Virus record (IMG/VR): IMGVR_UViG_3300035704_000011
Location: 1-55,941 of that record
Direction: 5' to 3' (one strand)
DNA length: 55,941 nucleotides
DNA from: a virus
A program made the position numbers and the translations under genes. Numbering within the stretch: position 1 is the stretch's first letter; every line of letters begins with the position of its first letter. Below, piece after piece: positions 7,887 to 48,672 of this stretch. The notes beneath the pieces are model-generated. The model did no database searches. It was not told where the DNA came from and saw only the letters and a list, made by a program, of their open reading frames with translations.

Positions 7887-7917
7887 TGGGCCGGAAAAGG
7901 ATTGCTTGCTCAGATTT

Positions 7918-19498: not shown

Positions 19499-19782
19499 CC
19501 GTCGATGCCGGCGCCCAGATCTTCCAGGCGCTGGGGCGGTTGCAGGGCGATGTCGATGCGGTGTTGCGCGGGCAGGAGGAGCTCGCCGTCCGGCTCGACC
19601 GGCATTTCGAGGACGACAAGCGGCTCGCCGATCGGGTCGGCGCGATCGAAATCGAGCAGGCGCGCTTTGCCGGCGCAGAGGCGAGCCGCACCCGTCGCAA
19701 CGCAGGCATTGCCAGCGTGATCGGCACGATCACCGGGGTCGCCGGCGCGATATTCGGCCACTGGGTCTCCGGCGGCCACTAA
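19495..19782 (+). CDS. Coiled-coil protein with C-terminal membrane anchor
   Basis: A 95-residue protein. Residues 10-65 form a charged coiled coil (QGDVDAVLRGQEELAVRLDR and following), and residues 70-90 form one hydrophobic segment (NAGIASVIGTITGVAGAIFG). This layout resembles XhlA-type or other small phage membrane proteins that assist holins. It overlaps the previous gene by ATGA. The lysis cassette lies 2 kb downstream, so a role in lysis is possible but not shown. Confidence 0.6.
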   Translation: MTVDAGAQIFQALGRLQGDVDAVLRGQEELAVRLDRHFEDDKRLADRVGAIEIEQARFAGAEASRTRRNAGIASVIGTITGVAGAIFGHWVSGGH

Positions 19783-19959
19783 ACCTCTTTCCCGCCCGGC
19801 CCGCTGCGAAGGGGCCGTTCCCAGACGCGACTGCACCACCTCCGAGCTCTTCATCGCCGCTCGGCGGGTGCGCCGTCGCAATACCCCCACGACCACGCAC
19901 CCCCCTGAACGCGCGTCCAGGCCCTTCGCAGGCCGGGCGGCGATGGAGATTTTACTCAC

Positions 19960-20904
19960 ATGGATATCGCCGGGCAGCAGGCATTGCTGGATGTCGTCGC
20001 CGCCTATTCGAACCCGGTCCGCTGGGAAAGCCGATTGCGGCTTACGCTCGAGTTCATCGAGCGGATGCTCAACACCCGCGGGGTGCGATTGACGATGGTC
20101 GAATGCGCCCACGGCGAGCGGCATTTCGAGCTCCCCGAGCACCGCGGCATGAACCTCGTGCGGGTGCGGCAACGCTCGATGCTGTGGAACAAGGAGAACC
20201 TGCTCAACATCGGGATCGCGCGGCTACCCGATAACTGGTCATACGTGGCATGGCTCGATGCCGATATCATGTTCCGCGATCCACACTGGGCGGGCGAGAC
20301 GATTCACGCGCTGCAGCATTACGATGTGATCCAGCCCTGGTCCGACGCCTATGACCTCGGCCCGAAGGGCGAGCACGTCGGCGGCTGGAAAAGTTTCTGC
20401 TACCAGCACCGCCGCGGCTTCCGGGTCAACTGCCGGACCGGCGATGGATATGTTTTCGGCCATCCCGGCTATGCCTGGGCGGCACGGCGGCGCGCGCTCG
20501 ATGCGGTCGGCGGGCTGATCGACACCGGAATCCTCGGTGCCGGCGATCATCACATGGCCTATTCTTTGATCGGCCGCGGCGGGGAGACGACCTCGAAGGA
20601 CAAGCTCCCGGCGACGTATATGGCGCCGATATTGCGCTGGCAGGCATTCGCCGAGGAGGCGATCCAGCGCAATATCGGTTATCTGCGCGGCACGCTCGAG
20701 CATTTCTGGCACGGGCCCAAGCCCGACCGCCGCTATGTCGACCGCTGGAAAATCCTGATTCGCAACCAGTTCGACCCGGCGATCGATCTGCGCCGGACGA
20801 CCCGCTGGGTCTACGAGCTCGCCGGCAACAAGCCGCAATTGCGCGACGACCTCGATGCCTATTTCCGACAGCGCAACGAAGACTCGAACGAGTGTCCCCC
20901 GTAA
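19960..20904 (+). CDS. GT-A type glycosyltransferase
   Basis: A 314-residue enzyme likely to transfer a sugar from a nucleotide sugar. The GT-A metal motif DAD is at residues 100-102 within YVAWLDADIMF. A conserved-looking GYAWAARRRALDAVGGLIDT (170-189) and GAGDHHM (193-199) match the acceptor/Galactosyltransferase-like half, where D196 is the candidate catalytic base. There is no membrane segment, so it is cytoplasmic. It stands between fibre genes and small membrane proteins. Possible targets are host surface glycans (receptor masking), tail fibres or DNA; the sequence does not decide. Confidence 0.75.
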   Translation: MDIAGQQALLDVVAAYSNPVRWESRLRLTLEFIERMLNTRGVRLTMVECAHGERHFELPEHRGMNLVRVRQRSMLWNKENLLNIGIARLPDNWSYVAWLDADIMFRDPHWAGETIHALQHYDVIQPWSDAYDLGPKGEHVGGWKSFCYQHRRGFRVNCRTGDGYVFGHPGYAWAARRRALDAVGGLIDTGILGAGDHHMAYSLIGRGGETTSKDKLPATYMAPILRWQAFAEEAIQRNIGYLRGTLEHFWHGPKPDRRYVDRWKILIRNQFDPAIDLRRTTRWVYELAGNKPQLRDDLDAYFRQRNEDSNECPP

Positions 20905-21860: not shown

Positions 21861-22544
21861 ATGACCGCCAGCACCGAGATCCTCACGGCAATCGCCGGCT
21901 GGGCGCCAAAGCCCGTCGCGGCGAGCGAGGCGCAGGCGGCCCTCGCTGCAATCTTCGAGGGCGAAGGGGGCCGCTCGTTCCGCGAACTCTACAGCGGCGG
22001 CGAGTTGCTGATGCCCGACCATCCGAACATCGAAATCATGGGCAAGCGGCGGCTATGGACCGGCAACCTCGCCGTGTTCCCTGACTGGGGCGGCGCAGAA
22101 CTTGACGACCGTCGCACCAAAACCCACGCCGCCGGCGCCGGCCAGGACGAGCCGGCGACATGGCAGACAATCGGCCGGCTCACCGGTGTCACCGGGTTTG
22201 AACCGACCGATCAACTCGATGGAAATTGGTTCCTCGCGCAGCACGATTTCGCCGCGCGCAGCGGCCAGGACCTGCTCGCCGCGCTGCAGGCCGGTCACCC
22301 CGAGCTCGTCACGACCTATCTCATCCGGGTCTGGCCTGGCGGTGCTGACCGCAGCTTCGCCAAGCGCTTCGCCGCCAACCTGGCGGCCCTCAAGGCGCTC
22401 TCGATGCCGCCACCGCCACCACCGCCGCCCTATGCCGGCATGGTGCCGCAGCGGCTCTCGGTCGAGCTCCTCCTCAAGCCGGCGAGCGACGGCCACAGCC
22501 TCGAGCTCACCGCCGAGCACCTCACTGCGGGACCCGCGCCGTGA
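21861..22544 (+). CDS. Endolysin (lysozyme / lytic transglycosylase-like)
   Basis: A 227-residue protein in the lysis cassette. A catalytic-type segment IFEGEGGRSFRELYSGGELL (residues 31-50) offers E33 or E35 as the acid. DHPN follows, and then HAAGAGQDEPATWQTIGRLT, which parallels the A-G-x-Y/G-Q segment of lambda-R-type and related phage transglycosylases. The C-terminal part contains an eight-proline run and a short beta tail. It has no signal peptide, so export would need the holin. It is followed by a membrane protein overlapping its stop. Confidence 0.65.
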   Translation: MTASTEILTAIAGWAPKPVAASEAQAALAAIFEGEGGRSFRELYSGGELLMPDHPNIEIMGKRRLWTGNLAVFPDWGGAELDDRRTKTHAAGAGQDEPATWQTIGRLTGVTGFEPTDQLDGNWFLAQHDFAARSGQDLLAALQAGHPELVTTYLIRVWPGGADRSFAKRFAANLAALKALSMPPPPPPPPYAGMVPQRLSVELLLKPASDGHSLELTAEHLTAGPAP

Positions 22545-22981
22545 TGAACCCGAAAATGACGACCGGCGCAGCCGCTGGCATCGCAGTTCAGATCGTCGTC
22601 GTGCTGATGTGGCTCCTGGCGATGGCGCACATCACCGTCCCGAACGACGTTGCGATAGCGCTCGCCGGGATCATCACCTGGGCGGGCGGGCTTGTCCTGC
22701 ATCCCAACAATTCAGCCGATGCACCGCCCGGCAATCGTATGACGCCGATCGTTCGCTCGATAATTGCCGCCCTCGCCGTCGTCGGGCTCGCCGGTCCGCT
22801 CGCCTTGCGGGCGCTCGCAACCAGCGATGAGCCGACGACCGTCTGGCAGACTATCGCCGCGGCGCCGTCGATCGTCGACTTGATCGAGCCGGCTTTCGAT
22901 CCCTGCAATCGTTCTGGCCAGGGCGCCGTCGAATTGCGCCGCTGCCTGGCCCTGAGCGCGACCACCAAAGGCCCACAATGA
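22541..22981 (+). CDS. Membrane protein of the lysis cassette (candidate holin)
   Basis: A 146-residue protein overlapping the endolysin stop. It has two hydrophobic segments at about 8-28 and 33-52 and a third at about 70-90 (SIIAALAVVGLAGPLALRAL), then a soluble tail with two cysteines (DPCNRSGQ, LRRCLAL). Several membrane segments next to endolysin suggest a holin. The long periplasm-type C-terminus is unusual; an Rz-like spanin partner is the alternative, because the next gene is a small lipoprotein that overlaps it. Confidence 0.55.
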   Translation: MMNPKMTTGAAAGIAVQIVVVLMWLLAMAHITVPNDVAIALAGIITWAGGLVLHPNNSADAPPGNRMTPIVRSIIAALAVVGLAGPLALRALATSDEPTTVWQTIAAAPSIVDLIEPAFDPCNRSGQGAVELRRCLALSATTKGPQ

Positions 22982-23172
22982 TCCGGCTGACCCTTTTCCT
23001 CTGCGGCGCGCTCGCCGCAGCCGCGCTCGCGATGCTCGGCGGGTGCTCGACGCCGCAGGTCGTCCAGGCCACCGATTGCCGCGGTGCCGCGGCACCGTGC
23101 GGGACAATCGCCATCGATCAACACGCAATGACCCCCCTCATGCTCACGGTTCCGGTGTCCGCCCTACCCTAG
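22978..23172 (+). CDS. Small lipoprotein, Rz1-like
   Basis: A 64-residue protein overlapping the previous gene. Its N-terminus is a lipoprotein signal: LTLFLCGALAAAALAMLGGC with the lipobox LGGC, cysteine at about residue 23. The mature part is 41 residues. Size, lipobox and place after endolysin and a membrane protein match an outer-membrane spanin subunit (Rz1 type), which helps fuse the membranes at lysis. Proline content is modest for Rz1, so another envelope role is possible. Confidence 0.6.
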   Translation: MIRLTLFLCGALAAAALAMLGGCSTPQVVQATDCRGAAAPCGTIAIDQHAMTPLMLTVPVSALP

Positions 23173-23351
23173 GCGGACTTTTCCGGCCCGATTGCGGGCG
23201 ACCGTTCGGGCGGCGCTCCTGCGCTTTCTAATGCCTCATCGATCCTCTGGATCGCCGCGATGAAAGCCGCCCGTAGCTGGCGTATTTCCTGAATTTCTTC
23301 GTCGCCGCAAATTTTATCGTCGACGGAACGGCCCCGGATGTGGCTGTCCAT
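23169..23351 (-). CDS. Small hypothetical protein at the end of the left operon
   Basis: A 60-residue protein read from ATG 23351. A longer open frame to 23504 exists, but its extra part is only the reverse of the tRNA-like attachment site (the well-known GGIEPPTHGFSV artefact), so it is not used. The real part is helical and acidic with EEIQEIRQLRAAFIAAIQRI. It overlaps the lipoprotein stop by 4 bases, convergently. The family is not recognised. Confidence 0.5.
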   Translation of the reverse strand: MDSHIRGRSVDDKICGDEEIQEIRQLRAAFIAAIQRIDEALESAGAPPERSPAIGPEKSA

Positions 23352-23442
23352 TAGGCTAGACGAGCCCCGCGTAATCTGGCGGAATGCGGTAGCGATGTTA
23401 GACGGAGATTTCGTAAAACCCCATTGAAAACAAAGGCCATAA

Positions 23443-23494
23443 CATCCGACTGAAAATCCGTGTGTCGGTGGTTCAATTCCGCCCCTGGGCACCA
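23443..23494 (+). other. attP: attP core: 3' half of a tRNA-Phe gene
   Basis: The sequence reads as the anticodon loop (CTGAAAA, anticodon GAA), variable loop, T arm (GGTGGTTCAATTCCGCC) and CCA end of tRNA-Phe, with no matching 5' half. It lies about 500 bases from the integrase stop. A phage copy of a tRNA 3' half next to an integrase is the standard form of an attachment site, so the phage should integrate into a host tRNA-Phe gene and restore it. Confidence 0.85.
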
Positions 23495-23531
23495 GCGTTT
23501 TCAATCACTTGCGAGAGGCAACGAAAGCGCG

Positions 23532-23999
23532 TTAGACATCTATGTCGCTCGCGCTAGACACCCAATTCCAAAATCCTTGCGCACCGCGGTGCGGGATAGG
23601 CGGTTCGAAGCGCTCGATGCTCGTAAGCGGCCAGGCGAATTTGTGCGCATCGATCCGATCACTGTCGAATTCCCTTTTCCAGTTGGTGCGCACCCATTCG
23701 AGCGCCGGCACTGACCTGCCAATGATCGCCGTGCCGAGGATCGACGACAGCGGCCAGGATTTGGTGTGAACGGTAGCCAACAGTGGGCGCGCGATTTCGC
23801 AGATAAGAGACGTCTCCTCGTCGTCGATGCGGGCGATGATGTCGGCGATCTCATCCGCCCGCGCCGGCCGCGCGCCTGCGTGGAGGGCGATGCGCTGCCC
23901 AACGATCCGCTTCGGACAATACCAGCTTCGCCATTCGACGGTCTTCGCACCGGCGATGATCAGGCTACACCAAGGCTGCCAAATCGTGAGGGCTTTCAC
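23532..23999 (-). CDS. ASCH-domain protein 1
   Basis: A 155-residue protein starting with GTG 23999, which overlaps the integrase stop as GTGA. The N-terminus KALTIWQPWCSLIIAGAKTV and following EWRSW match the ASCH fold, where W-x-P-W, G-x-K and E are characteristic. RIALHAGARPAR follows at about 36-47, and the C-terminus closes with GAQGFWNW. ASCH proteins are PUA-like; some bind RNA, and E. coli YqfB removes N4-acetyl from cytidine. A second paralogue lies at 26073. The role in a phage is unknown; a nucleic-acid modification link is possible because a cytosine methyltransferase is nearby. Confidence 0.75.
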   Translation of the reverse strand: MKALTIWQPWCSLIIAGAKTVEWRSWYCPKRIVGQRIALHAGARPARADEIADIIARIDDEETSLICEIARPLLATVHTKSWPLSSILGTAIIGRSVPALEWVRTNWKREFDSDRIDAHKFAWPLTSIERFEPPIPHRGAQGFWNWVSSASDIDV

Positions 24000-32549: not shown

Positions 32550-32863
32550 ACGAGGCCCCGGGACAGCTCGATCGCCGCCTGTTGAATCGTAATTACAGCC
32601 TTGTCCGCATGCGCTTGCGCTTTATGCCGAGCGCTCGCTGCCGCGTCGCGGGTGTCATAAACCAGCGCGGCGTCGAACCACTGCGGTCGCGAATACCGGC
32701 CTTGTGGATCGTGCTTGCTGCCGGCAACTTCAAGACAGATCTGCAGCCGCCCGGCACGGGTGCGCTCAGCCCGACCTTGGAGGAAGCACAGCCTAGCAAG
32801 GCGAGCTCCGGGCCCGGCTACGAGCCAGCGGATGTTGTCGGCGGCGGCGGCCGGCGCGATCAT
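32546..32863 (-). CDS. Hypothetical protein
   Basis: A 105-residue protein that starts in the pentapeptide gene's stop (ATGA). It has a beta core (GRLQICLEVAGSKHDPQGRY) and a C-terminal helix (ARHKAQAHADKAVITIQQAA). No family is recognised. Confidence 0.55.
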   Translation of the reverse strand: MIAPAAAADNIRWLVAGPGARLARLCFLQGRAERTRAGRLQICLEVAGSKHDPQGRYSRPQWFDAALVYDTRDAAASARHKAQAHADKAVITIQQAAIELSRGLV

Positions 32864-34143
32864 CCCGCCGCTCCGGCGAGCGACTGGAATTCCGCGATCC
32901 AGCCCTCAACGATCATCGCCAGTTGATTCGTCGCTGGAGTGTCGCCCTTGTGGATCCCGAGAAACCAACGCTCAATCTGCCGATCAGAATTGGCAAAGCC
33001 GAGTTCACTTAACGGCACGCGCCGAATATTGGCGATCGTTCCAGCCAAGCAGGCGCAATCGCCGGTGTAGGTCGATCCGTCTATCCGACCTTCGCGTAGG
33101 GCGGCGAGCAGGCCAGGGATCTCGGGCTGCGCGCGCAATAGAACATCCCAAAAATCATTGCGGACGCCGTCGAGGCGGGCGCCGTCGAGGCTGGCGCCGA
33201 AGAGGCTGGCGCCGTCGAGGCGGGCGCCGTCGAGGCGGGCGGCGTCGAGGCTGGCGCCGACGAGGCTGGCGCCGAAGAGGCGGGCGCCGTCGAGGCGGGC
33301 GCCGTCGAGGCGGGCGCCGTCGAGGCGGGCGGCGTCGAGGCGGGCGCCGACGAGGCTGCCGCCGTCGAGGCTGGCGCCGAAGAGGCGGGCGCCGACGAGG
33401 CTGGCGCGGTCGAGGCGGGCGCCGTCGAGGCGGGCGCCGTCGAGGCGGGCGCCGTCGAGGCGGGCGGCGTCGAGGCTGGCGCCGTCGAGGCGGGCGCGGT
33501 CGAGGCGGGCGCCGTCGAGGCGGGCGGCGTCGAGGCTGGCGCCGACGAGGCTGGCGCCGTCGAGGCTGGCGCCGAAGAGGCGGGCGCCGACGAGGCTGGC
33601 GCGGTCGAGGCGGGCGCCGTCGAGGCGGGCGCCGTCGAGGCGGGCGCCGTCGAGGCTGGCGCCGACGAGGCTGGCGCCGACGAGGCTGGCGCCGACGAGG
33701 CTGGCGCGGTCGAGGCGGGCGCCGTCGAGGTGGGCGCCGTCGAGGCGGGCGCCGTCGAGGCGGGCGGCGTCGAGGCTGGCGGCGTCGAGGCTGGCGCCGA
33801 CGAGGCTGGCGTCGAGGCGGGCGCCGTCGAGGCTGGCGCCGACGAGGTGGGCGCCGTCGAGGCGGGCGCCGTCGAGGCGGGCGGCGTCGAGGCTGGCGCC
33901 GACGAGGCGGGCGCCGACGAGGCTGGCGCCGTCGAGGCGGGCGCCGTCGAGGCTGGCGCCGACGAGGCGGGCACCGTCGAGGCTGGCGCCGTCTGAGACT
34001 ACGATCTCAAGCGCGGCACGAAGGTACCATCGCTCTTCGTAGGCCGGGATCTGCACCTCAAGTGAGGCGCGGCCCGTCCATCTGAGGAACGGGATCTTTA
34101 CGGTGATGGTGCCGGTAGCGGCGTCGGCGTCGTCGTCTGGCAT
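32860..34143 (-). CDS. Pentapeptide-repeat protein, 55 tandem repeats
   Basis: A 427-residue protein, first gene of the left operon, start at 34143 behind GGGAGGGGAGC. Residues 1-52 are an N-terminal domain. Residues 53-326 are 54 pentapeptides plus one tetrapeptide of the form A[S/R]L[D/V/F][G/R/A]; four residues of this kind per side build a square right-handed beta helix. Residues 327-427 are a C-terminal domain ([20 protein letters not shown] ... [19 protein letters not shown]) that I have seen with pentapeptide arrays in other phages. Such helices can mimic B-DNA and inhibit gyrase (Qnr/MfpA). A gyrase- or repressor-related DNA-mimic role is inferred. Confidence 0.88.
33166..33987 (-). 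repeat. 15-bp tandem repeat array coding for pentapeptides
   Basis: Fifty-four 15-bp units and one 12-bp unit cover 822 bp. On the plus strand the unit is close to GCCGTCGAGGCGGGC. Differences are confined to codons 2, 4 and 5 of each unit; almost no silent change is seen. One unit near 33811 lacks a glycine codon. All six frames are poor in stop codons, which creates long false reading frames. Confidence 0.95.
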
Positions 34144-34171
34144 GCTCCCCTCCCGCATATTGTCCGAGCCA

Positions 34172-34200
34172 CGATATTTGCATTCATGCACATTGGTCAA
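34172..34200 (-). promoter_or_regulatory. Early-left promoter PL
   Basis: On the minus strand, -35 TTGACC (34200-34195) and -10-like ATATCG (34177-34172) are separated by 17 bases, and operator 34178-34191 fills most of the spacer. The layout is the same as at PR. The start point should lie about 20 bases before the pentapeptide gene. Confidence 0.65.
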
Positions 34201-34223
34201 GAGGAAAGTTTGCAATTATGCGC
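34178..34223. promoter_or_regulatory. Left operator cluster (two sites)
   Basis: Two copies of the palindromic element TTGCA-N4-TGCRM: TTGCATTCATGCAC at 34178-34191 and TTGCAATTATGCGC at 34210-34223. Their centres are 32 bp apart, close to three helical turns. The first overlaps PL and the second lies just upstream of its -35. Confidence 0.75.
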
Positions 34224-40120: not shown

Positions 40121-40294
40121 ATGCGAGACGCGATCGACGCGATTGTGCGGCAGACCGGATTTACCGCCGAGGAGGCGGGCGAGATCCTGATTGCGTTGGC
40201 CGATCTTCGCGACGGGTCGGAGGCGCGGCTGGTGGCACTGATCAACGTCTTGTTGCTGCGCTACGATCATCAGCCGGCGCCGGTGGAGTGCTGA
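40121..40294 (+). CDS. Small helical protein
   Basis: A 57-residue protein with AGGAG 8 bases before ATG 40121. Two helices: AIDAIVRQTGFTAEEAGEIL and SEARLVALINVLLLRYDHQP. It overlaps the end of the convergent HTH gene by 53 bases. Family unknown. Confidence 0.5.
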   Translation: MRDAIDAIVRQTGFTAEEAGEILIALADLRDGSEARLVALINVLLLRYDHQPAPVEC

Positions 40295-40550
40295 AGACGG
40301 CGATATCGAACGTCGCCAGCAGCCGTCTTGCAGCGTGACTCTCGAGCTCGGTGACCATCGAGAAGTAGTTGACACGCTCGCCATAGATGCGCCGCGTCGC
40401 GGTGCGGGCGGCGAGCTGGGCAATGGCAATCGTGTAACGGCGCGAAACAGGGATTCGCCCACTGGCCCACCCATATACCCGCTGCCTCCGGACGCCGATG
40501 GCAAGCGAGAGGGGCGTTTTCCAATGGCTGCCGAAGATGTACGCGCCCAT
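40242..40550 (-). CDS. HTH-like protein on the minus strand
   Basis: A 102-residue protein read from ATG 40550; a TTG-started frame extends to 40622 but crosses the promoter region of the next gene. SHWKTPLSLAIGVRRQRVYG followed by WASGRIPVSRR fits a Cro-type helix-turn-helix of the kind that recognises a non-self promoter. It is divergent from the BTAD activator at 40675 and may regulate it through the inverted repeat at 40620-40639. Confidence 0.6.
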   Translation of the reverse strand: MGAYIFGSHWKTPLSLAIGVRRQRVYGWASGRIPVSRRYTIAIAQLAARTATRRIYGERVNYFSMVTELESHAARRLLATFDIAVFSTPPAPADDRSAATRR

Positions 40551-40619
40551 CCTTGCGAGGTCCCCCTTGGTGAGCTGGCTAATGGCGGTGGGCTTCAAAA
40601 ACGCGGCATTTACGTACCC

Positions 40620-40639
40620 CAAACTACGGGTTTAGTTTG
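40620..40639. promoter_or_regulatory. Inverted repeat (candidate operator) upstream of the activator gene
   Basis: Perfect arms CAAACTA and TAGTTTG separated by 6 bases, lying 35 bases before the BTAD activator start and between two divergent regulatory genes. It differs from the TTGCA operators, so a different protein should bind it. Confidence 0.5.
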
Positions 40640-40674: not shown

Positions 40675-41640
40675 ATGTGTAGTACTTTTAGGGGCGGGGC
40701 TGAGATGACGTTGTCGGTTCGCCTGCTCGGCTCTTTGGTGATTGAAACGGGGGATCGCGGGCTCGGGAAAATCCCGAAGAAAGCTCGCGCCCTGCTCGCC
40801 TTTCTTGCCGCTCAACACGGCCAGCCCGTCGCTCGCTCACGAGTGGCGGACATGCTCTGGCCGTACCAGGGACATGAGCAATCCCTCCACAGCCTACGTA
40901 ATTGCCTAATGGAGCTGCGCAAGGCTTTGGGGCGGGGTACAGACACTCACTTAGCCGCCGACTATGTGCGCTGCCGGATCCAGGACGCCGCCGTTGACCT
41001 TGTACAATTTGAGCAGCTATCGCGTTCCCAGCGGTTTTGTGACCTGCAGGCGGCAGCCGATTTGTACCGCGGCGAGCTCCTGGACGATGTCGAGATAGAT
41101 TCCGAGCCGTTTCAGGAATGGCTGACGGCGGAGCGTCGCCGGACACTCGCTGTGGCGTGCGATATCTTGCAACGATTGATGACGATGCACGATGCTGCCG
41201 GCGACCACGACGCGGCGATTCAGTGCGGCCGACGGCTAGTTTTTCTCGACCCGTTCGCGGAATCAGGACAGCGCGCCTTGATGCGCGCATATGCCGGTGC
41301 GGGGCGTCGTAGTGAAGCGCTCCTCCAATATAGGAGCTGCGCCGAGACACTGAAGCGCGAACTGGGCGTCGCGCCTGACACCGAGACGCAGTCGTTGGCG
41401 ATAGAGATTGGGGGTTCGAAGATGGCTATAATCGAGCGATCTATACCTCCAGCGAGACGGATCAGCTGTCCGGCCGCTGATGCGCTAATCCCGCTCGGCA
41501 TTGAATTGGGTAATGCGATCGACGGTGGTGCGAAATTGCGGCGCGGGATGGCTGTCGAGATCGTCAGCCACATAAAATCGCTCGGGGATTTTTTTGCATC
41601 AGCAGCGTCGCGCTCCTCCTGCTCAGAATCCTCATATTGA
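40675..41640 (+). CDS. SARP/AfsR-type activator with BTAD domain
   Basis: A 321-residue regulator with a strong ribosome site (AAAGGGGGAACGGG). Residues 11-110 form an OmpR-like winged helix (LSVRLLGSLVIETGDRGLGK, RSRVADMLWPYQGHEQSLHS, LRNCLMELRKALG). Residues 115-250 are a bacterial transcriptional activation domain with tetratricopeptide-type helices (LYRGELLDDV, AERRRTLAVACDILQRLMTM, PFAESGQRALMRAYAGAGRR, ALLQYRSCAETLKRELGVAP). SARP proteins activate secondary-metabolite and other operons; finding one in a phage is unusual. In place it corresponds to a late-gene activator. The C-terminal 70 residues are unique. Confidence 0.82.
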   Translation: MCSTFRGGAEMTLSVRLLGSLVIETGDRGLGKIPKKARALLAFLAAQHGQPVARSRVADMLWPYQGHEQSLHSLRNCLMELRKALGRGTDTHLAADYVRCRIQDAAVDLVQFEQLSRSQRFCDLQAAADLYRGELLDDVEIDSEPFQEWLTAERRRTLAVACDILQRLMTMHDAAGDHDAAIQCGRRLVFLDPFAESGQRALMRAYAGAGRRSEALLQYRSCAETLKRELGVAPDTETQSLAIEIGGSKMAIIERSIPPARRISCPAADALIPLGIELGNAIDGGAKLRRGMAVEIVSHIKSLGDFFASAASRSSCSESSY

Positions 41641-41673
41641 TTTCTGTCGGATTTTCAGGTATGCTCTAGGCCG

Positions 41674-41686
41674 AAATACGGTATTT
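41674..41686. promoter_or_regulatory. Short palindrome upstream of DUF6456-like gene
   Basis: AAATAC-G-GTATTT, in an A/T-richer 157-bp gap between two regulatory genes. A possible operator; support is symmetry and position only. Confidence 0.35.
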
Positions 41687-41797
41687 GCGCCCAGCTCGTT
41701 AGCCGACGGCGCGTTGACGCCAGGAAAGCTAAAGTTCAGATCTGCCCCGGTTCATAAAACTGCGGGCGGATTTTTGTTAGATATTTTAAGAGATTTG

Positions 41798-42337
41798 ATG
41801 AAAGCGCGCAGGCGGTCAGCTCAGCTGACTGATATTCTGGCGCCGACCATTGAGCGATCAACGCACGATGTCGTCGAACGTCTGGAAAAACCGATCGCCG
41901 ATACCGCCGGCTGCGTGGCGAGGCCGTATCGTGCGATCGACATCCTGGCCGCGATGGAGCGGCGCGGCGCGATAACCGTTGGGATGCGGATGGCTGGCGA
42001 GACCTTCCGAATGAAATTCAACCGTGCCCACTTAGAGCAGTTGCGTGCGGCCGATATGTCGCGCTCGCCCGGAGGAGGCAAAGGTCCCAACGATCTCCCA
42101 TCGGCAACCTATGCAGCACGCGAGCACGTCTGGCGCGCAATCTGCGCCGTCGGCGGCCTCGCCTCGGCGGGCGGCGCATGCTTGTGGCATGTCGTCGGGC
42201 TCGAGGTCAGCCTAAAACGGTGGGCCCAAGAGCAAGGCTGGAACGGTCGTATGGTCAGCCAGGAAGCTGCCACCGGTATATTGATCTGCGCGCTCGGCGC
42301 GCTCGAGGCGCACTATGACGATGGCAGGCGCGCATAA
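41798..42337 (+). CDS. DUF6456-like protein
   Basis: A 179-residue protein from ATG 41798; the open frame continues upstream to 41594 but that part overlaps the activator end. The segment AIDILAAMERRGAITVGMRM is a small winged-helix-like stretch, and the C-terminal domain (REHVWRAICAVGGLASAGGA ... GLEVSLKRWAQEQGWNGRMV ... ALGALEAHY) follows the DUF6456 pattern found widely in Alphaproteobacteria. The function of that family is unknown, but it accompanies regulators. An XRE gene overlaps its end. Confidence 0.6.
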   Translation: MKARRRSAQLTDILAPTIERSTHDVVERLEKPIADTAGCVARPYRAIDILAAMERRGAITVGMRMAGETFRMKFNRAHLEQLRAADMSRSPGGGKGPNDLPSATYAAREHVWRAICAVGGLASAGGACLWHVVGLEVSLKRWAQEQGWNGRMVSQEAATGILICALGALEAHYDDGRRA

Positions 42338-42608
42338 CCTTCAGCCATTCAGGTCGCCATCGCTGGCTGAAGTCACGACGAATCTAAAAGAATGGCGTCG
42401 CCAGTTTGATCTCGAAATGTGTGCAAACCTGTTGCGCGCACGCAAAGAGGCCGGATTGACCCAAGCAGAACTTGGCTACCGATGCGGCATTGATGCCGCG
42501 AAGGTGTGCCGCTGGGAAAGTGGCGCCCTGGTGATTGCCGCGTCATATCTGGCACTGGTCGCGTCTGCGCTCGGCGTGCCGCCGATGTCGCTGTGGCCGA
42601 AATACTGA
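42315..42608 (+). CDS. XRE-family DNA-binding protein
   Basis: A 97-residue protein overlapping the previous gene by 23 bases. Residues 38-92 form a classical XRE helix-turn-helix: LLRARKEAGLTQAELGYRCG, DAAKVCRWESGALVIAASYL, ALGVPPMSLWP. The N-terminal 35 residues are a short extension. It is one of two XRE proteins in this regulatory block. Confidence 0.8.
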   Translation: MTMAGAHNLQPFRSPSLAEVTTNLKEWRRQFDLEMCANLLRARKEAGLTQAELGYRCGIDAAKVCRWESGALVIAASYLALVASALGVPPMSLWPKY

Positions 42609-42624
42609 TAACCGTTGCAGTTGA

Positions 42625-43002
42625 ATGTTGTGCCCTCACTGTTTTGGAAGGCTCGACGGGCAACCATCGGTGATCCTGTCGCCGCCTTGGTTTGATCATC
42701 AGCGACGCGAGATCATCGTTGATGGTGAGCGGCGGCATCTCCGAAGTGGTTTGTGGAGGCTGCTCCTCATCTTTTGGGATCGCCAGGATCAGTTCTTGCC
42801 CGTGGGCCGTCTTATAGACCTCCTATATGCTGGAAATCTCCAGAGTAGCCAAACAGATACCTTTAGGGTCCAGATTAGTCGTCTGCGCAAAGCCCTCGAT
42901 GGCACGCCATTCGCGATTCTTAATCAGTACGACTGCGGTTATATGCTTACATCCGGGCGGGCTGATGAGAGGGAAATCGCCCGAAGGCGCCGGAACTTAT
43001 AG
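42625..43002 (+). CDS. Winged-helix regulator with N-terminal zinc knuckle (I)
   Basis: A 125-residue protein. It starts CPHC (Cys 3 and 6), then from residue 20 carries an OmpR/PhoB C-terminal winged helix (trans_reg_C): FDHQRREIIVDGERRHLRSG, LLLIFWDRQDQFLPVGRLID, VQISRLRKALDG, YDCGYML. No receiver domain is present. It is the same design as the protein at 43387, and shares the winged-helix class with the BTAD activator at 40675. All three lie in the block upstream of the late operon. No clear ribosome site is seen before ATG 42625. Confidence 0.7.
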   Translation: MLCPHCFGRLDGQPSVILSPPWFDHQRREIIVDGERRHLRSGLWRLLLIFWDRQDQFLPVGRLIDLLYAGNLQSSQTDTFRVQISRLRKALDGTPFAILNQYDCGYMLTSGRADEREIARRRRNL

Positions 43003-43050
43003 CCATTGTTGCTGCGCTGCTCTGTTCCTCGTGTTGAGGTAGCCATCGGG

Positions 43051-43206
43051 ATGGAGCCGCTGACCGCGCCCTGCCCAGGCTGCGGCACTGCTGTATTTTA
43101 TTCGGGCTATTGGTGCGACGATTGCGGCATATCCGCGATTGAGGGCGCGGCGCTGGACGCCGACTTCGAGCCCGACGCCGATTTCGAGGCCGATAATCAT
43201 GATTGA
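43051..43206 (+). CDS. Zinc-ribbon micro-protein
   Basis: A 51-residue protein with CPGCG and CDDCG pairs (ALTAPCPGCGTAVF is not complete here: the pairs are about 16 residues apart), as in a zinc ribbon. The C-terminus is a run of Asp/Glu/Phe (DADFEPDADFEADNHD), strongly acidic. Such acidic zinc ribbons may contact RNA polymerase or nucleic acid mimics. No family is named. Confidence 0.55.
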   Translation: MEPLTAPCPGCGTAVFYSGYWCDDCGISAIEGAALDADFEPDADFEADNHD

Positions 43207-43390
43207 TTATGTTTTTCGCGGCCCTCGCGATGGCAAAATGCGTGACCGGATTAGAAAGAGCGACGGACCTTGCAATAAATCGGACAATTTTTCCGTTGAA
43301 AACGCAACCGAGATTTGCCTCAGGTTTGAAATTTCGGGCGTAGGCCTCCTGCGGTCCATAGTATCACGAGCGATACTAGGACGACCATGA
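43199..43390 (+). CDS. Small hypothetical protein
   Basis: A 63-residue protein whose ATG overlaps the zinc-ribbon end and whose TGA overlaps the next ATG. It is basic at first (GPRDGKMRDRIRKSDG) and beta-rich later (ATEICLRFEISGVGLLRSIV). Its codons are less GC-rich than those of neighbours. Function unknown. Confidence 0.5.
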   Translation: MIDYVFRGPRDGKMRDRIRKSDGPCNKSDNFSVENATEICLRFEISGVGLLRSIVSRAILGRP

Positions 43391-43800
43391 TTTGCGAGCG
43401 CTGCGCCGACGAAATCGAAAACGCGGCAGCGCGCCCGCCTCCAGAAATGCGTGGGCCGATCTGGGTCATCGCCGGAGAAAAGCGCAGCGTGCGGCCTATC
43501 GTACGCCGCATTTTCAAGATCCTATGGTCGCGCCGTGACGTGCTGGTCCGCCGCGAGGCGTTCATGACGCAGCTTTATGGCCACCGTGCCGACCCGCCAT
43601 TCGACGGCACCTTAGATACGCATCTCTGCTATTTGCGCCAGGCGCTGGAGGGGAGCGGCTTCGGGATCCACACTTACCGCGGCGAGGGATGGCAACTCGT
43701 CCAACTCTCGCCTGGAACACAGGCCAGCGAAGCGCGGCGCTCTGCTGCGGCCAGCAGTAGGCAGATCGCGCGGCGCCTGCGCGAGGCTATGAGCCGTTGA
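43387..43800 (+). CDS. Winged-helix regulator with N-terminal zinc knuckle (II)
   Basis: A 137-residue protein. CERC at residues 3-6 parallels the CPHC start of the protein at 42625. The winged helix follows: RPIVRRIFKILWSRRDVLVR, REAFMTQLYGHRADPPFDGT, LDTHLCYLRQALEG, GFGIHTYRGEGWQL. The C-terminal tail is basic and helical. The two proteins seem to be diverged paralogues. Without a receiver domain their control must come from expression level or a partner, possibly the BTAD activator. Confidence 0.72.
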   Translation: MICERCADEIENAAARPPPEMRGPIWVIAGEKRSVRPIVRRIFKILWSRRDVLVRREAFMTQLYGHRADPPFDGTLDTHLCYLRQALEGSGFGIHTYRGEGWQLVQLSPGTQASEARRSAAASSRQIARRLREAMSR

Positions 43801-43906: not shown

Positions 43907-44773
43907 ATGGCTTCTCGGAATAAAGATAACTCCCCGATTTTTACGCAAGTGTTGAGGCGCGTCGAGCTCCCTCGCCTCGTCAAACGGGCGTCTGGTGACG
44001 TAAAAAATGGCTCGCACGAACAAATAGATAATAGGATCCGTGAAATGGCCCGCAAGATCAGTGGGTTAGAGTATGCGGACCGCAGATATATCGCCTACTA
44101 CCGCGTTTCAACGCTTCAACAAGGGGCTTCTGGACTTGGTTTAGAGGCCCAGCGCGAAGCGGTAGGTCGATATGTTTTTAGCGTGGCTGGCGAGATCATT
44201 GCTGAGTTCGAGGAGATCGAAAGCGGCAAGCGATCAGAGAATCGACCCAAGCTGATCGAAGCTCTAGCCCACGCGAGGGCGACCCGCGCGACGCTCGTGA
44301 TTGCGAAGCTTGATCGCCTGGCCAGGAACGTGGCTTTCATCAGTTCGCTGATGGACGCCGGCGTCGACTTCATCGCGGCCGATATGCCGATGGCCAACAG
44401 ATTAACAGTCCACGTTCTGGCCGCGGTAGCCGAGCACGAACGTGAGATGATCAGCGTCCGAACGAAGGCAGCGCTTGCTGCGGCAAAAGCCAGGGGCGTG
44501 AAGCTTGGCAATCCTAAGCTTCGCGCCGGCGATCGCGAAAGCGCGCGCGCGGCCTGCCGTGTTCGGGTGGCAAAGGCGAACAAGATCGCAAGCTCGATCA
44601 TGCCATACATCGAGGCTGCGCGAAGTGCTGGATGCAGGACTCTCGCCGAGCTGGCCGACGCGCTGACCGCTCGCGGCATTAGAACTCCCGGAGGCAAATC
44701 TAAATGGAGCGCGGAACAGGTGCGTCGGATAACGGCGCGGCTTTCGATGAGCGCGCGTTCAATATCAAGCTAG
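43907..44773 (+). CDS. Serine recombinase (resolvase/invertase family)
   Basis: A 288-residue recombinase with a GAGG ribosome site. The catalytic domain starts near residue 60: YIAYYRVSTLQQGASGLGLE with nucleophile S68, then EIESGKRSENRPKLIEAL, LVIAKLDRLARNVAF and EREMISVRTKAALAAAKARG. A C-terminal helix-turn-helix (RTLAELADALTARGIRTPGG, WSAEQVRRI) binds DNA. The 55-residue N-terminal extension is unusual for small resolvases; a start at residue 48 is possible. The genome already has a tyrosine integrase, so inversion, dimer resolution or a regulatory role is likely here. Confidence 0.88.
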   Translation: MASRNKDNSPIFTQVLRRVELPRLVKRASGDVKNGSHEQIDNRIREMARKISGLEYADRRYIAYYRVSTLQQGASGLGLEAQREAVGRYVFSVAGEIIAEFEEIESGKRSENRPKLIEALAHARATRATLVIAKLDRLARNVAFISSLMDAGVDFIAADMPMANRLTVHVLAAVAEHEREMISVRTKAALAAAKARGVKLGNPKLRAGDRESARAACRVRVAKANKIASSIMPYIEAARSAGCRTLAELADALTARGIRTPGGKSKWSAEQVRRITARLSMSARSISS

Positions 44774-44964
44774 GAGCGGCGATCCGCGCCAGCCGCCGCG
44801 CGCAAGGCCTGGCCCAAAAAGCCCTGGCTCGCGCCTGCGTCTTGACCACGACTTCGATGTCCCGCATCGAACGCGGCAAACGAGGGCTGAGGCTGTCGCA
44901 GCTGCAGACGATCGCCGACGAGCTAGGCGTGACGTCGGTGGCTCTGTTGCGAGCCGCATGCTGA
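44704..44964 (+). CDS. XRE-family DNA-binding protein
   Basis: An 86-residue protein overlapping the recombinase end by 70 bases. Residues 22-84 are a typical XRE domain: LGAAIRASRRAQGLAQKALA, TTTSMSRIERGKRGLRLSQL, ADELGVTSVALL. Because it is coupled to the recombinase gene it may control it. Confidence 0.78.
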   Translation: MERGTGASDNGAAFDERAFNIKLGAAIRASRRAQGLAQKALARACVLTTTSMSRIERGKRGLRLSQLQTIADELGVTSVALLRAAC

Positions 44965-45677: not shown

Positions 45678-45745
45678 ATAGGTTTCACCCGCCCGCGTTG
45701 GTCAGTCCGGCGAGGAAAGCCGATGCGGTGCGGTGCGCCGGGGAA

Positions 45746-45784
45746 GGACGCCTCGCCTCTACCACTCGTTTAGGCGAGGCGTCC
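45746..45784. repeat. 13-bp perfect inverted repeat
   Basis: GGACGCCTCGCCT at 45746-45758 and AGGCGAGGCGTCC at 45772-45784, with a 13-base loop. It lies 26 bases before the gene at 45810 and has no T tract. A GC-rich repeat GCGGTGCGGTGCG precedes it. It may end the regulatory transcript or be bound by a protein. Confidence 0.6.
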
Positions 45785-45809
45785 GACCGCCTCAAAGGAA
45801 TGCCGAGTA

Positions 45810-46016
45810 ATGTCGCTGAGCGTCCATGAGTTCATCAGGTGCGCGAAGGCCATCTTTGCCTTCGGTGCAGGATACAAGGCGGGTGAGCGCTATGCGCTGG
45901 GTGAAGCCGAAGCGGCGCGAGCCAAGCGCATCGATGCTGAGGCTTGGCAGCTCGGCTACGACCTGAGCAATCGCAGGTACATGGGCGCCGACAAGCAATC
46001 CTTTTCCCAGGATTAA
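45810..46016 (+). CDS. Small hypothetical protein before the terminase genes
   Basis: A 68-residue helical protein with AAAGGA upstream of ATG 45810. FAFGAGYKAGERYALGEAEA and RIDAEAWQLGYDLSNRRYMG are its main segments. No family is recognised. Confidence 0.55.
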   Translation: MSLSVHEFIRCAKAIFAFGAGYKAGERYALGEAEAARAKRIDAEAWQLGYDLSNRRYMGADKQSFSQD

Positions 46017-46175
46017 GTAATTCTTTTCAAGTAATGCTTTCTAAAACCCCGACATTCTACGACTAATCCACAAACAAGTAGGTTGTGTTGCGGGTCCTTG
46101 TACAACCAAATAGTAATACGGGAGCTTCGGAGCCCGAATCGTCTCCAGCTGTCGACTTTATTTTATCGATGAAAC
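46017..46175. other. A/T-richer gap before terminase: candidate cos and late promoter region
   Basis: This 159-bp stretch is clearly less GC-rich than its surroundings. It has an inverted repeat GGTTGT/ACAACC (46081-46107) and ends directly at the small terminase gene. In lambda-type phages cos lies just upstream of the small terminase gene, so the packaging site and a late promoter are expected here. No exact cos could be identified. Confidence 0.4.
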
Positions 46176-46667
46176 TTGCCAAGGAAGTCTAACTTTTCGG
46201 GCCAGGTCGCGAACCGGGCCGAGATGGCCGGGATCCTTGGCGTCAGCCCGACAACCCTCGATCGCTATGTCGCGGCCGGCTGTCCGGTCGAAACGCGCGG
46301 CGAACTGCGACGGGAGTACCAGTTCAACTCGGCTGCGGTGATCGCCTGGCGTGACCAGCGGGACGCTGCGGCGCGCGAGAAGGCTGGGGCCGCCGGTCTG
46401 ACCGGCGCCGAGAGCGCAAGGGAGCGCTATACGCTCGCATCGGCCGAGCTGAAGGAGTTGCAGCTTGCCGAAAGGCGCGGGCTGATGATCTCGGTCGAGG
46501 ACGTCGCGCCGATTCTCGCCGACGAGCTGGCGAATGTCCGCTCGCGGCTGATGGCGATGCCAGGGCGGCTGGCGACGGTGCTCGCCGACATGACCGATCC
46601 GGCGACGATCGAGACGACGATCGAGGAAGAGGTCGCCGGTGCCCTCAGCGAATTGAAGAGTGGCTGA
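46176..46667 (+). CDS. Terminase small subunit, Nu1-like
   Basis: A 163-residue protein from TTG 46176; ATG 46224 would cut into the DNA-binding domain. Residues 10-60 resemble the Nu1 winged helix: ANRAEMAGILGVSPTTLDRY, AAGCPVETRG, FNSAAVIAWRDQRD. The rest is helical (RERYTLASAELKELQLAERR, the segment that binds the large subunit). It should recognise cos. The large subunit overlaps its end. Confidence 0.8.
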   Translation: MPRKSNFSGQVANRAEMAGILGVSPTTLDRYVAAGCPVETRGELRREYQFNSAAVIAWRDQRDAAAREKAGAAGLTGAESARERYTLASAELKELQLAERRGLMISVEDVAPILADELANVRSRLMAMPGRLATVLADMTDPATIETTIEEEVAGALSELKSG

Positions 46668-48672
46668 ACCGAAAACTGCGCTGGAAGCTGCGGAGAAATT
46701 ACGAGGGCTCGTTAGGGCCGCGATTACCGAGGCGCTGCGGCCGCCGCTGCGCATCAGCCTGCCGGAGTGGGCCGATACATACCGCCGGCTGTCGCGCGAC
46801 AGCGGCAGCATCGGCGGGGCCTGGCAGACGAGCCGCGTTGCGGTCGCGCGCGGCCCGATGATGGCGGTGACCGAGCCCGGGGTGCAGGTCATCACGCTGA
46901 TGGTCGCGACCCAGCTGCTCAAGACGAGCGTCTTGGAAAACGTCATCGGCTACTACGCGCACACCGACCCATGCCCGATGCTGCTGGTGCAGCCCAAGGA
47001 CGAAGCGGCCGACTCGTTCTCGAAGGAGCGCCTCGCGCCGATGATCGCGGCGACGCCGATCTTGCGCGAGCTGATGGGCGACCAGCGCACGCGGCGCTGG
47101 GAAAACACGCTGGGGTTTCGCAAATTCCCCGGCGGGTCTCTGGCGATCGTCTCGGCCGGAAGCCCGACCAACCTGGCGATGCGCGCGATCCGCGTCACCT
47201 TGCTCGACGAGATCGACAAATACGAGACGAGCAAGGAGGGCGACCCGGTCGGGCTCGCCGAGGAGCGCAGCGCCACCTTCACGACCCGGCGGCTGTCGAT
47301 CCGGGCCTGCTCGCCGACCTGGGAAGAGACCAGCCGGATCAACCGCTCTTACAACGAGAGCGACCAGCGGCGCGCCTTTGTCCCCTGCCCGCATTGTGGA
47401 CACTCACAAGACCTCGACTTCTTCCGGCACGTCCATTGGGAGAAATCCGAGGACGGCCGGCACCTACCCGAGACCGCGCATATCGGCTGCGAAAGCTGCG
47501 GCGTTGTGTGGAGCGAGGCCGAGCGGCTTCTCGCGCTGCAGCGGATCGAGTGGCGGCAGACCCGGAAAATCACCTGTTGCGGCGAGGCGCAGGACCCGCG
47601 CGCGACCCGGTCGTGGCTATGGGACGCCAAGACCGAGGTCGGTTATGCGACTTGCACGCATTGCGGCAAACGAGCGGTGCCGCACCGGCACGCCGGGTTT
47701 ACCGCATCGAAGCTCTACAGCCCATGGCTGACGGTCGTGGATCTGGCGAAGGCGTGGATCGTCGCCAAGGACGATCCGGAATCGAAGCAGACCTTCTACA
47801 ACACGCAACTCGCGCTGGCCTACAAGACCGAGGCGCTGAAGGAACTCGGGCACGAGGCGCTGCTGCGCCGCCGCGAGCATTGGGAAGCGGTGCCGGACGA
47901 GGTGCTGGTCATCAGCGCCGGCGTCGACATGCAGGACAACCGGCTCGAGGTCGAGGTCGTCGGCTGGGGGCTCGGCGAGGAAAGCTGGTCGCTGGCCTAT
48001 GAGATTTTCACCGGCGACCCGGCGAAGAATGAGGTTTGGAGCGAGCTCGACGAATTCCTGCTGGCGCCGCTGACGCGAGCCGACGGCAGGGCAATGGCTA
48101 TCCGCGCCGCCTGCATCGATAGCGGCGGTCACAACACGCAGGACGCCTACCGCTTCGCGCAGGCTCGCATCGGCCGCAATGTGTGGGCGATCAAGGGCGC
48201 CTCCGACCGCGCGCAATGGTCGCCGATCTGGCCGAGCTCGACGCGGTCGAAGGGCGGTCGCTACCGCGCCGGCTATCGGCCTATCATCCTTGGCGTCAAC
48301 GCCGCCAAAGAGGCGGTTCGCCAGCGCCTACTGATCGCCGAGCCGGGACCCGGATATTGCCATTTCCCGGTCGGACGATCGGCCGGCTATTTCGAGCAGC
48401 TGACCAGCGAGCGGCTGGTCATCGAGCGCAAGGGCGGCACGTTGCTGCGCCGCTGGGTTTTGCCGGCGCACCGCGCTGCCGAGGCGCTCGACTGCCGGGT
48501 CTACGCCTATGCAGCCCTGTGGGGTCTCTATCACCTGCGCCGCCTGCGGCTCGATCGCGCCGCGCAGCTGATCAACGATGCGCCGCCGGCGGTCGCTGCG
48601 CACGCAGCGGCGCCGACGGCAGGCGCAACCATGCGGCCGCGCTCGCGGCACAGCAACTTCGTCAGAGGTTAA
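46660..48672 (+). CDS. Terminase large subunit, GpA family
   Basis: A 670-residue packaging motor from GTG 46660. The ATPase half has a GpA-type deviant Walker A with QLLKTS (85-90), and Walker B LLDEID (181-186, D183/E184). Zinc-type pairs CPHCG, CESCG and CTHCG fall in the middle. The nuclease half begins SAGVDMQDNRLEVEVVGWG near 420, which gives the first catalytic Asp. Length matches lambda gpA (641). It cuts at cos and drives DNA into proheads. Confidence 0.93.
   Translation: MAEPKTALEAAEKLRGLVRAAITEALRPPLRISLPEWADTYRRLSRDSGSIGGAWQTSRVAVARGPMMAVTEPGVQVITLMVATQLLKTSVLENVIGYYAHTDPCPMLLVQPKDEAADSFSKERLAPMIAATPILRELMGDQRTRRWENTLGFRKFPGGSLAIVSAGSPTNLAMRAIRVTLLDEIDKYETSKEGDPVGLAEERSATFTTRRLSIRACSPTWEETSRINRSYNESDQRRAFVPCPHCGHSQDLDFFRHVHWEKSEDGRHLPETAHIGCESCGVVWSEAERLLALQRIEWRQTRKITCCGEAQDPRATRSWLWDAKTEVGYATCTHCGKRAVPHRHAGFTASKLYSPWLTVVDLAKAWIVAKDDPESKQTFYNTQLALAYKTEALKELGHEALLRRREHWEAVPDEVLVISAGVDMQDNRLEVEVVGWGLGEESWSLAYEIFTGDPAKNEVWSELDEFLLAPLTRADGRAMAIRAACIDSGGHNTQDAYRFAQARIGRNVWAIKGASDRAQWSPIWPSSTRSKGGRYRAGYRPIILGVNAAKEAVRQRLLIAEPGPGYCHFPVGRSAGYFEQLTSERLVIERKGGTLLRRWVLPAHRAAEALDCRVYAYAALWGLYHLRRLRLDRAAQLINDAPPAVAAHAAAPTAGATMRPRSRHSNFVRG

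Follow-up and report, generated by a model that had tools for sequence, protein, structure and literature searches.

A candidate late-gene control module pairing a GafZ-like DUF6456 protein with OmpR-family winged-helix regulators in a phage genome

RESULTS

The window analyzed in this study is the IMG/VR virus record IMGVR_UViG_3300035704_000011, a linear stretch of DNA of 55,941 bases, and our subject is a block of regulatory genes (40705–43800) that lies ahead of its terminase operon. In our reading, which we hold with even confidence, the block is the module that controls the late genes of a temperate phage; its predicted core is a GafZ-like antiterminator, and OmpR-family activators are the candidate recruiters that replace GafY. 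The direct results behind this reading are the domains of the encoded proteins, the homology to GafZ, the conserved position of the DUF6456 gene, and the coupling of that gene to a BTAD gene in a second phage. Antitermination, a GafY-like role, a repressor, and binding sites are what we infer for the block. A reading made earlier from the letters of the window (the sequence-only reading) had proposed a late-control system where lambda places Q; a module at that position is still the best interpretation, with the lead candidate shifting to the DUF6456 gene, which recurs before terminase genes without BTAD.

DUF6456 is the Pfam name for annotated homologs of GafA (PMC9638019, PMC9765227), which directly activates the Rhodobacter gene transfer agent (GTA) (PMC9638019). 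In Caulobacter, the halves of GafA are separate proteins: GafY touches the sigma-70 factor RpoD, and GafZ is an antiterminator that works with NusA, NusG, and NusE (PMC11150451). The repressor of the GafYZ operon is RogA (PMC9632790), and the known function of the DUF6456 family is the activation of structural (GTA) operons (PMC11150451, PMC9638019). In the window, the DUF6456 gene occupies 41798–42337 on the plus strand and encodes 179 amino acids (Pfam, 30.1 bits; cut-off, 26.3), the ATG at 41798 being a more likely start than the TTG at 41594 according to homolog alignment. Alignment of a phage-type DUF6456 profile with the host GafZ set by hhalign gave a probability of 96.5 (E = 9e-10), the host profiles having been drawn from loci that included one with an adjacent GafY gene of the DnaA_C type. 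The host-type loci found carry a GafY-like gene with a DnaA_C helix-turn-helix (HTH), then a strong DUF6456 gene (171 bits), plus a divergent XRE-type gene. Bac_DnaA_C, the GafY-type HTH, had no match among ten scanned proteins of the block and its flanks and one in host locus L214, and no Q-type antiterminator family appeared among the Pfam or PHROG matches of the block proteins. The sole suggestive fold matches of the modeled DUF6456 protein were sigma region-4 domains, with non-significant E-values; they are consistent with, without proving, the sigma-like HTH published for GafZ. The product of 41798–42337 thus resembles GafZ and the C-terminal part of GafA and is probably a late activator/antiterminator.

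The position of this gene was conserved. DUF6456 stood upstream of the terminase and in the same orientation in the window, in the phages G001 and G051, in the prophages G113 and G149, in the isolated Acidithiobacillus phage AcaML1, and in the IMG/VR record G048. It lies directly ahead of the small and large terminase genes in G051; in AcaML1, the DUF6456-like gp20 (L216:8863–9390), annotated as hypothetical, comes after the primase operon, and opposite-strand genes separate it from the terminase. The terminases downstream differ, being of the GpA type, of another type common to G001 and G051, or Terminase_6. This count leaves out G047 (E = 0.007) and the prophages G265 and G077, whose terminases were assigned by eye without Pfam support. 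Of these phages and prophages, just the window and G001 have BTAD. Because DUF6456 is kept before the terminase where BTAD or Trans_reg_C is absent, it appears to be the constant part of the system, with the OmpR-family proteins as its variable partners. Small proteins with a zinc motif resembling the GcrA C terminus were also seen directly before DUF6456 (L175:12349–13287, L176:6127–7074, and L149:733–1735), in host loci and one phage; L176 also has a divergent XRE-type repressor, and the small proteins may represent a further type of partner.

The three OmpR-type winged-helix proteins that the sequence-only reading had counted within 3 kb, one of them with a BTAD, all scored above Pfam cut-offs. 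The BTAD gene (40705–41640, plus strand) encodes a small-SARP-like regulator of 311 amino acids with neither receiver nor ATPase. In the open reading frame (ORF) beginning at 40675, BTAD (PF03704) scored 84.9 bits (E = 9e-24; cut-off, 22.1) and Trans_reg_C (PF00486) scored 26.9 bits (cut-off, 26.2), and both elements of the SARP layout were present, an N-terminal OmpR-type winged helix and a BTAD directly behind it. The domains earlier assigned to this ORF were thereby borne out, and its start was corrected from 40675 to 40705 by alignment with the G001 homolog. A profile search against PDB sequences, as the sequence-only reading had proposed, led to AfsR (8k60; E = 3.5e-12), in an alignment covering the winged-helix region, and to EmbR. 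Structure prediction, its other suggestion, recovered the same two as best fold matches, EmbR and the transcription complex of AfsR (8k60), at 26–28% identity, although the winged-helix part was modeled with low confidence. AfsR was also the best NCBIfam model, below its cut-off.

BTAD and SARP proteins had been described at the outset as mainly actinobacterial, which did not hold: they are common in alphaproteobacterial hosts, with matches in 23 of the 385 genomes sampled (E ≤ 1e-25; mostly long reading frames) and in 128 Rhizobium plasmid records. The nearest non-phage relatives are bacterial. The phage forms are short (311 amino acids in the window and about 336 in G001), which makes it plausible that a host regulator was captured and trimmed. 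Among the annotated phages of INPHARED, the window BTAD protein had zero matches. Two weak matches of the G001 protein were set aside, as they are "UNVERIFIED" fecal scaffolds and, judging by the look of their ORFs, probably high-GC bacterial DNA. PHROGs gave no significant match for the BTAD protein or for the two other winged-helix proteins, WH1 and WH2, and scans of IMG/VR for close relatives of BTAD and WH2 found none.

The second phage, IMGVR_UViG_3300037852_000247 (G001; 93.7 kb), was reached through a WH1 homolog with 48% identity and was the only find of the IMG/VR profile scans for BTAD and the winged helices. It carries a BTAD gene as well as a gene for a CxxC winged helix. BTAD was found in 0 of the 49 other records scanned for it, and Trans_reg_C was confined to the window and G001 among 50 records. 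The two phages have in common the integrase (E = 5e-147), the primosomal gene, a divergent YdaS-like gene (19512–19976 in G001, minus strand; E = 9e-10) in the same place upstream, DUF6456, and BTAD, but not the terminase. In G001, the BTAD ATG at 20885 overlaps the DUF6456 stop (ATGA coupling). Despite the differing terminases, the two BTAD proteins form one clade (support, 100/98). This coupling and the phage clade argue that the BTAD gene belongs to the phages and is linked to DUF6456, of which, by these comparisons, it is a supported accessory. In addition to the integrase at about 6.8 kb, G001 has a second tyrosine recombinase (22456–23553; L145:2456–3553) directly after BTAD.

Downstream in the window block lie WH1 (42625–43002, plus strand; 125 amino acids) and its paralog WH2 (43387–43800, plus strand; 137 amino acids), whose kinship is evident from BLASTP (E = 9e-10). 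Each has an N-terminal CxxC (MLCPHC and MICERC, respectively) ahead of an OmpR/PhoB-type winged helix (Trans_reg_C, 27.3 and 32.7 bits; above the Pfam cut-off) and, in agreement with the sequence-only reading, no Pfam match to a receiver domain. The C-terminal R.IARR motif is common to WH1, WH2, and a third homolog. A profile built from WH1, WH2, and one relative matched the DNA-binding domains of PhoB and OmpR in the PDB (PhoB, E = 1.9e-6), as the proposed winged-helix assignment predicted. No WH match was found in INPHARED phages or in a WH profile scan of genome_contigs, nor was a CxxC winged helix found in the 385 alphaproteobacterial genomes at E ≤ 1e-12, in a search that had no positive control. 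The cysteines could bind metal, and the two proteins may act as additional activators or as antagonists.

Candidate cis elements were examined in both phages. SARP and OmpR proteins bind direct repeats with a period of about 11 bp, and SARP sites lie near the −10 element. In G001, some 40 bp ahead of the probable DUF6456 start, a 10-bp sequence is perfectly repeated in direct orientation with an 11-bp period (20138–20158; L145:138–158) and looks like a predicted OmpR/SARP-type site; it is the only perfect repeat of this period in its contig and is a weak candidate. In the window, a perfect 7-bp inverted repeat, CAAACTA-N6-TAGTTTG (40620–40639), between the divergent YdaS-like and BTAD genes is a weak candidate operator, with a single exact match in the window and 0.23 expected with up to three mismatches. 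Ahead of the terminase small subunit gene (terS), three copies of the repeat AAGYAATNCTTT (45993–46040, plus strand), at spacings of 22 and 14 bp, are weak candidate binding sites; their shuffle fraction was 0.016–0.05 for a motif picked post hoc. A perfect 13-bp hairpin (45746–45784, plus strand) in the same region, without a U-tract, is a weak candidate for a non-canonical terminator; the RNA fold of 45735–45800 had an energy of −36.4 kcal/mol (z = −4.5). Scans of the window for sigma-70 promoters and terminators were at chance level, and a scan of its upstream regions for SARP heptamers with a −10 element yielded none. A 16-bp identical sequence, CAAGCAATCCTTTTCC, found at 7896–7909, just past a minus-strand gene, and at 45991–46006, before terS, was rejected, being within chance for the window size by our estimate.

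The remaining genes of the region frame the block. Its ORFs are intact and sited between replication and terminase genes, on the late-operon strand; the divergent YdaS/Cro-like HTH gene (40242–40622; weak Pfam YdaS match, E = 0.004) is on the minus strand. Both the DUF6456-like gene and the XRE genes that had been placed in the block were present: an XRE-family regulator (42315–42608, plus strand; HTH_31, 34.4 bits) overlaps the end of the DUF6456 gene, and a second (44704–44964, plus strand; HTH_3, 36.1 bits) follows a serine recombinase (43907–44773, plus strand; Pfam, 92 bits). The recombinase and the second XRE gene lie in the 2.4 kb between the block and terS. The same type of recombinase comes after DUF6456 in phage G052 (homolog E = 1e-66); the PHROG assignment of the window gene is DNA invertase, and it may serve DNA inversion or a second recombination system. 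A small zinc-ribbon-like ORF with two CxxC pairs (43006–43206, plus strand) had sub-threshold Pfam matches only. The terminase small subunit (46176–46667, plus strand; PHROG 57, E = 8e-34) and large subunit (46660–48672, plus strand; PHROG 15, E = 7e-219) are followed by genes for the portal (50974) and the head protease (52758); the primosomal gene (38626) lies just upstream of the block, and RecT (27118) and tape measure (4000) genes lie farther off. A PADLOC run was negative, leaving a defense role without support. Elsewhere in the window, there is a perfect 15-bp inverted repeat with a 23-nucleotide loop (20626–20678) within the reading frame 19960–20904, and a seemingly repetitive 451-amino-acid minus-strand protein (32860–34215) with several overlapping matches to PHROGs of unknown function (923 and 7713).

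DISCUSSION

In the mechanism that we envisage, the DUF6456 protein would bind the late promoter or DNA close to it, associate with RNA polymerase, and let the enzyme read through a terminator and on into the operon of terminase and structural genes, as has been published for GafZ in Caulobacter. The BTAD protein, perhaps also WH1 and WH2, would occupy direct repeats that lie upstream of phage promoters and from there recruit sigma-70 RNA polymerase, which is the role of GafY for GafZ and of AfsR-type SARPs in Streptomyces. Since their receiver and sensor domains have been lost, the three OmpR-family proteins would be active once made, so that activity would be set by the time of gene transcription; the divergent YdaS/Cro-like protein, a putative repressor, would supply the timing.

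Several results weigh against this mechanism. The G001 gene order, DUF6456 followed by BTAD, is swapped relative to the window, and its CxxC winged-helix gene lies about 25 kb off, among structural-type genes. BTAD was not found in G051 and G052, the DUF6456 phages scanned for it, and Trans_reg_C was not found in G051, G052, G047, G048, or AcaML1, indicating that neither the BTAD protein nor the CxxC winged helix is generally required. The DUF6456 structure was predicted with low confidence (pLDDT, 59.5) and had no significant fold match; confidence was also low for the winged-helix part of the BTAD model. In the window itself, no 11-bp repeat turned up in front of the BTAD gene, and no consensus sigma-70 promoter was found on the late strand. 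The phages lacking these partners, the distant CxxC gene of G001, and the abundance of BTAD regulators in alphaproteobacterial hosts would all fit an alternative in which DUF6456 alone is the late switch, and the BTAD and CxxC winged-helix proteins are host-captured accessories that reprogram transcription in the host, either in the lysogenic state or in the course of infection. We consider this unlikely, though by no means negligible, given the ATGA coupling, the BTAD/DUF6456 neighborhood kept in two phages with different structural modules, and the location of all the genes on the late-operon strand.

The block might instead be a lysis-lysogeny or replication switch, in which the BTAD and winged-helix proteins act with the YdaS-like and XRE proteins on early promoters, late control residing elsewhere. 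A known family function in activating structural (GTA) operons (PMC11150451, PMC9638019) and the conserved DUF6456 position before the terminase make this quite improbable, even with the perfect palindrome at the divergent YdaS-like gene, the two XRE genes, and the primosomal gene just upstream in its favor. That the BTAD and winged-helix genes were recently acquired from a host and have no function, or are host DNA assembled into a viral contig, is very improbable and already strained, since, for all their bacterial nearest non-phage relatives and the metagenomic origin of the record, the ORFs are intact between replication and terminase genes and the same genes recur, as one clade, in the independent phage G001.

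A broader proposal is possible but somewhat doubtful: a SARP-type activator would be the obligate partner of the GafZ-type antiterminator in phages, forming a two-step late switch of promoter recruitment and terminator bypass, and GafYZ control of GTAs would then be an inherited phage late switch with repeated exchange of the DNA-binding partner (DnaA-type, CtrA-type, BTAD). With GafZ-type genes at the late-regulator position in phages and prophages with differing terminases, the idea that GTA activators are old phage late regulators becomes directly testable. Within the searches made, a SARP-type partner would be the first such activator tied to a phage late switch.

Compared with known systems, the window resembles GafY/GafZ of Caulobacter crescentus and GafA of Rhodobacter capsulatus in having DUF6456, an adjacent gene for a DNA-binding partner, and a repressor in control, in the window a putative one (PMC11150451, PMC9638019), and the target of GafYZ/GafA is a phage-type structural operon, the GTA. 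Unlike in GafYZ, the partner is an OmpR winged helix with a BTAD rather than a DnaA-type GafY, and the genes, predicted to serve late control, are phage-encoded beside the terminase. Lambda Q likewise lies between replication and late genes and has the same function as that proposed here, but no sequence relation was found. Small SARPs and the N-terminal half of AfsR (PDB 8hvr, 8k60) have the same order of OmpR winged helix and BTAD, whereas the window protein is phage-encoded, of alphaproteobacterial type, and coupled to DUF6456. BTAD regulators are also listed beside operons of extracellular contractile injection systems (eCIS), which are phage-tail-derived (PMC8213781); these loci share with the window a BTAD protein next to phage-derived structural genes, but they are not phages, and DUF6456 is not reported there (PMC8213781). 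The closest pairing is that of roseophage RDJL Phi 1, in which a GafA homolog lies beside a receiver-less CtrA (PMC6363796), so that calling the system previously undescribed was too strong. Our check gave 42.4 bits for DUF6456 in gp38 and 52.8 bits for Trans_reg_C in the neighboring gp37. As in the window, a phage DUF6456 protein adjoins a receiver-less OmpR-family winged helix; gp37 differs in being a CtrA DNA-binding domain without CxxC, and RDJL Phi 1 has no BTAD and a terminase that is far away on the other strand. In light of this GafA-CtrA pairing and the BTAD genes by eCIS, the window appears to extend a known pattern, in which a GafA/GafZ-type protein is joined by OmpR-family partners stripped of their sensors.

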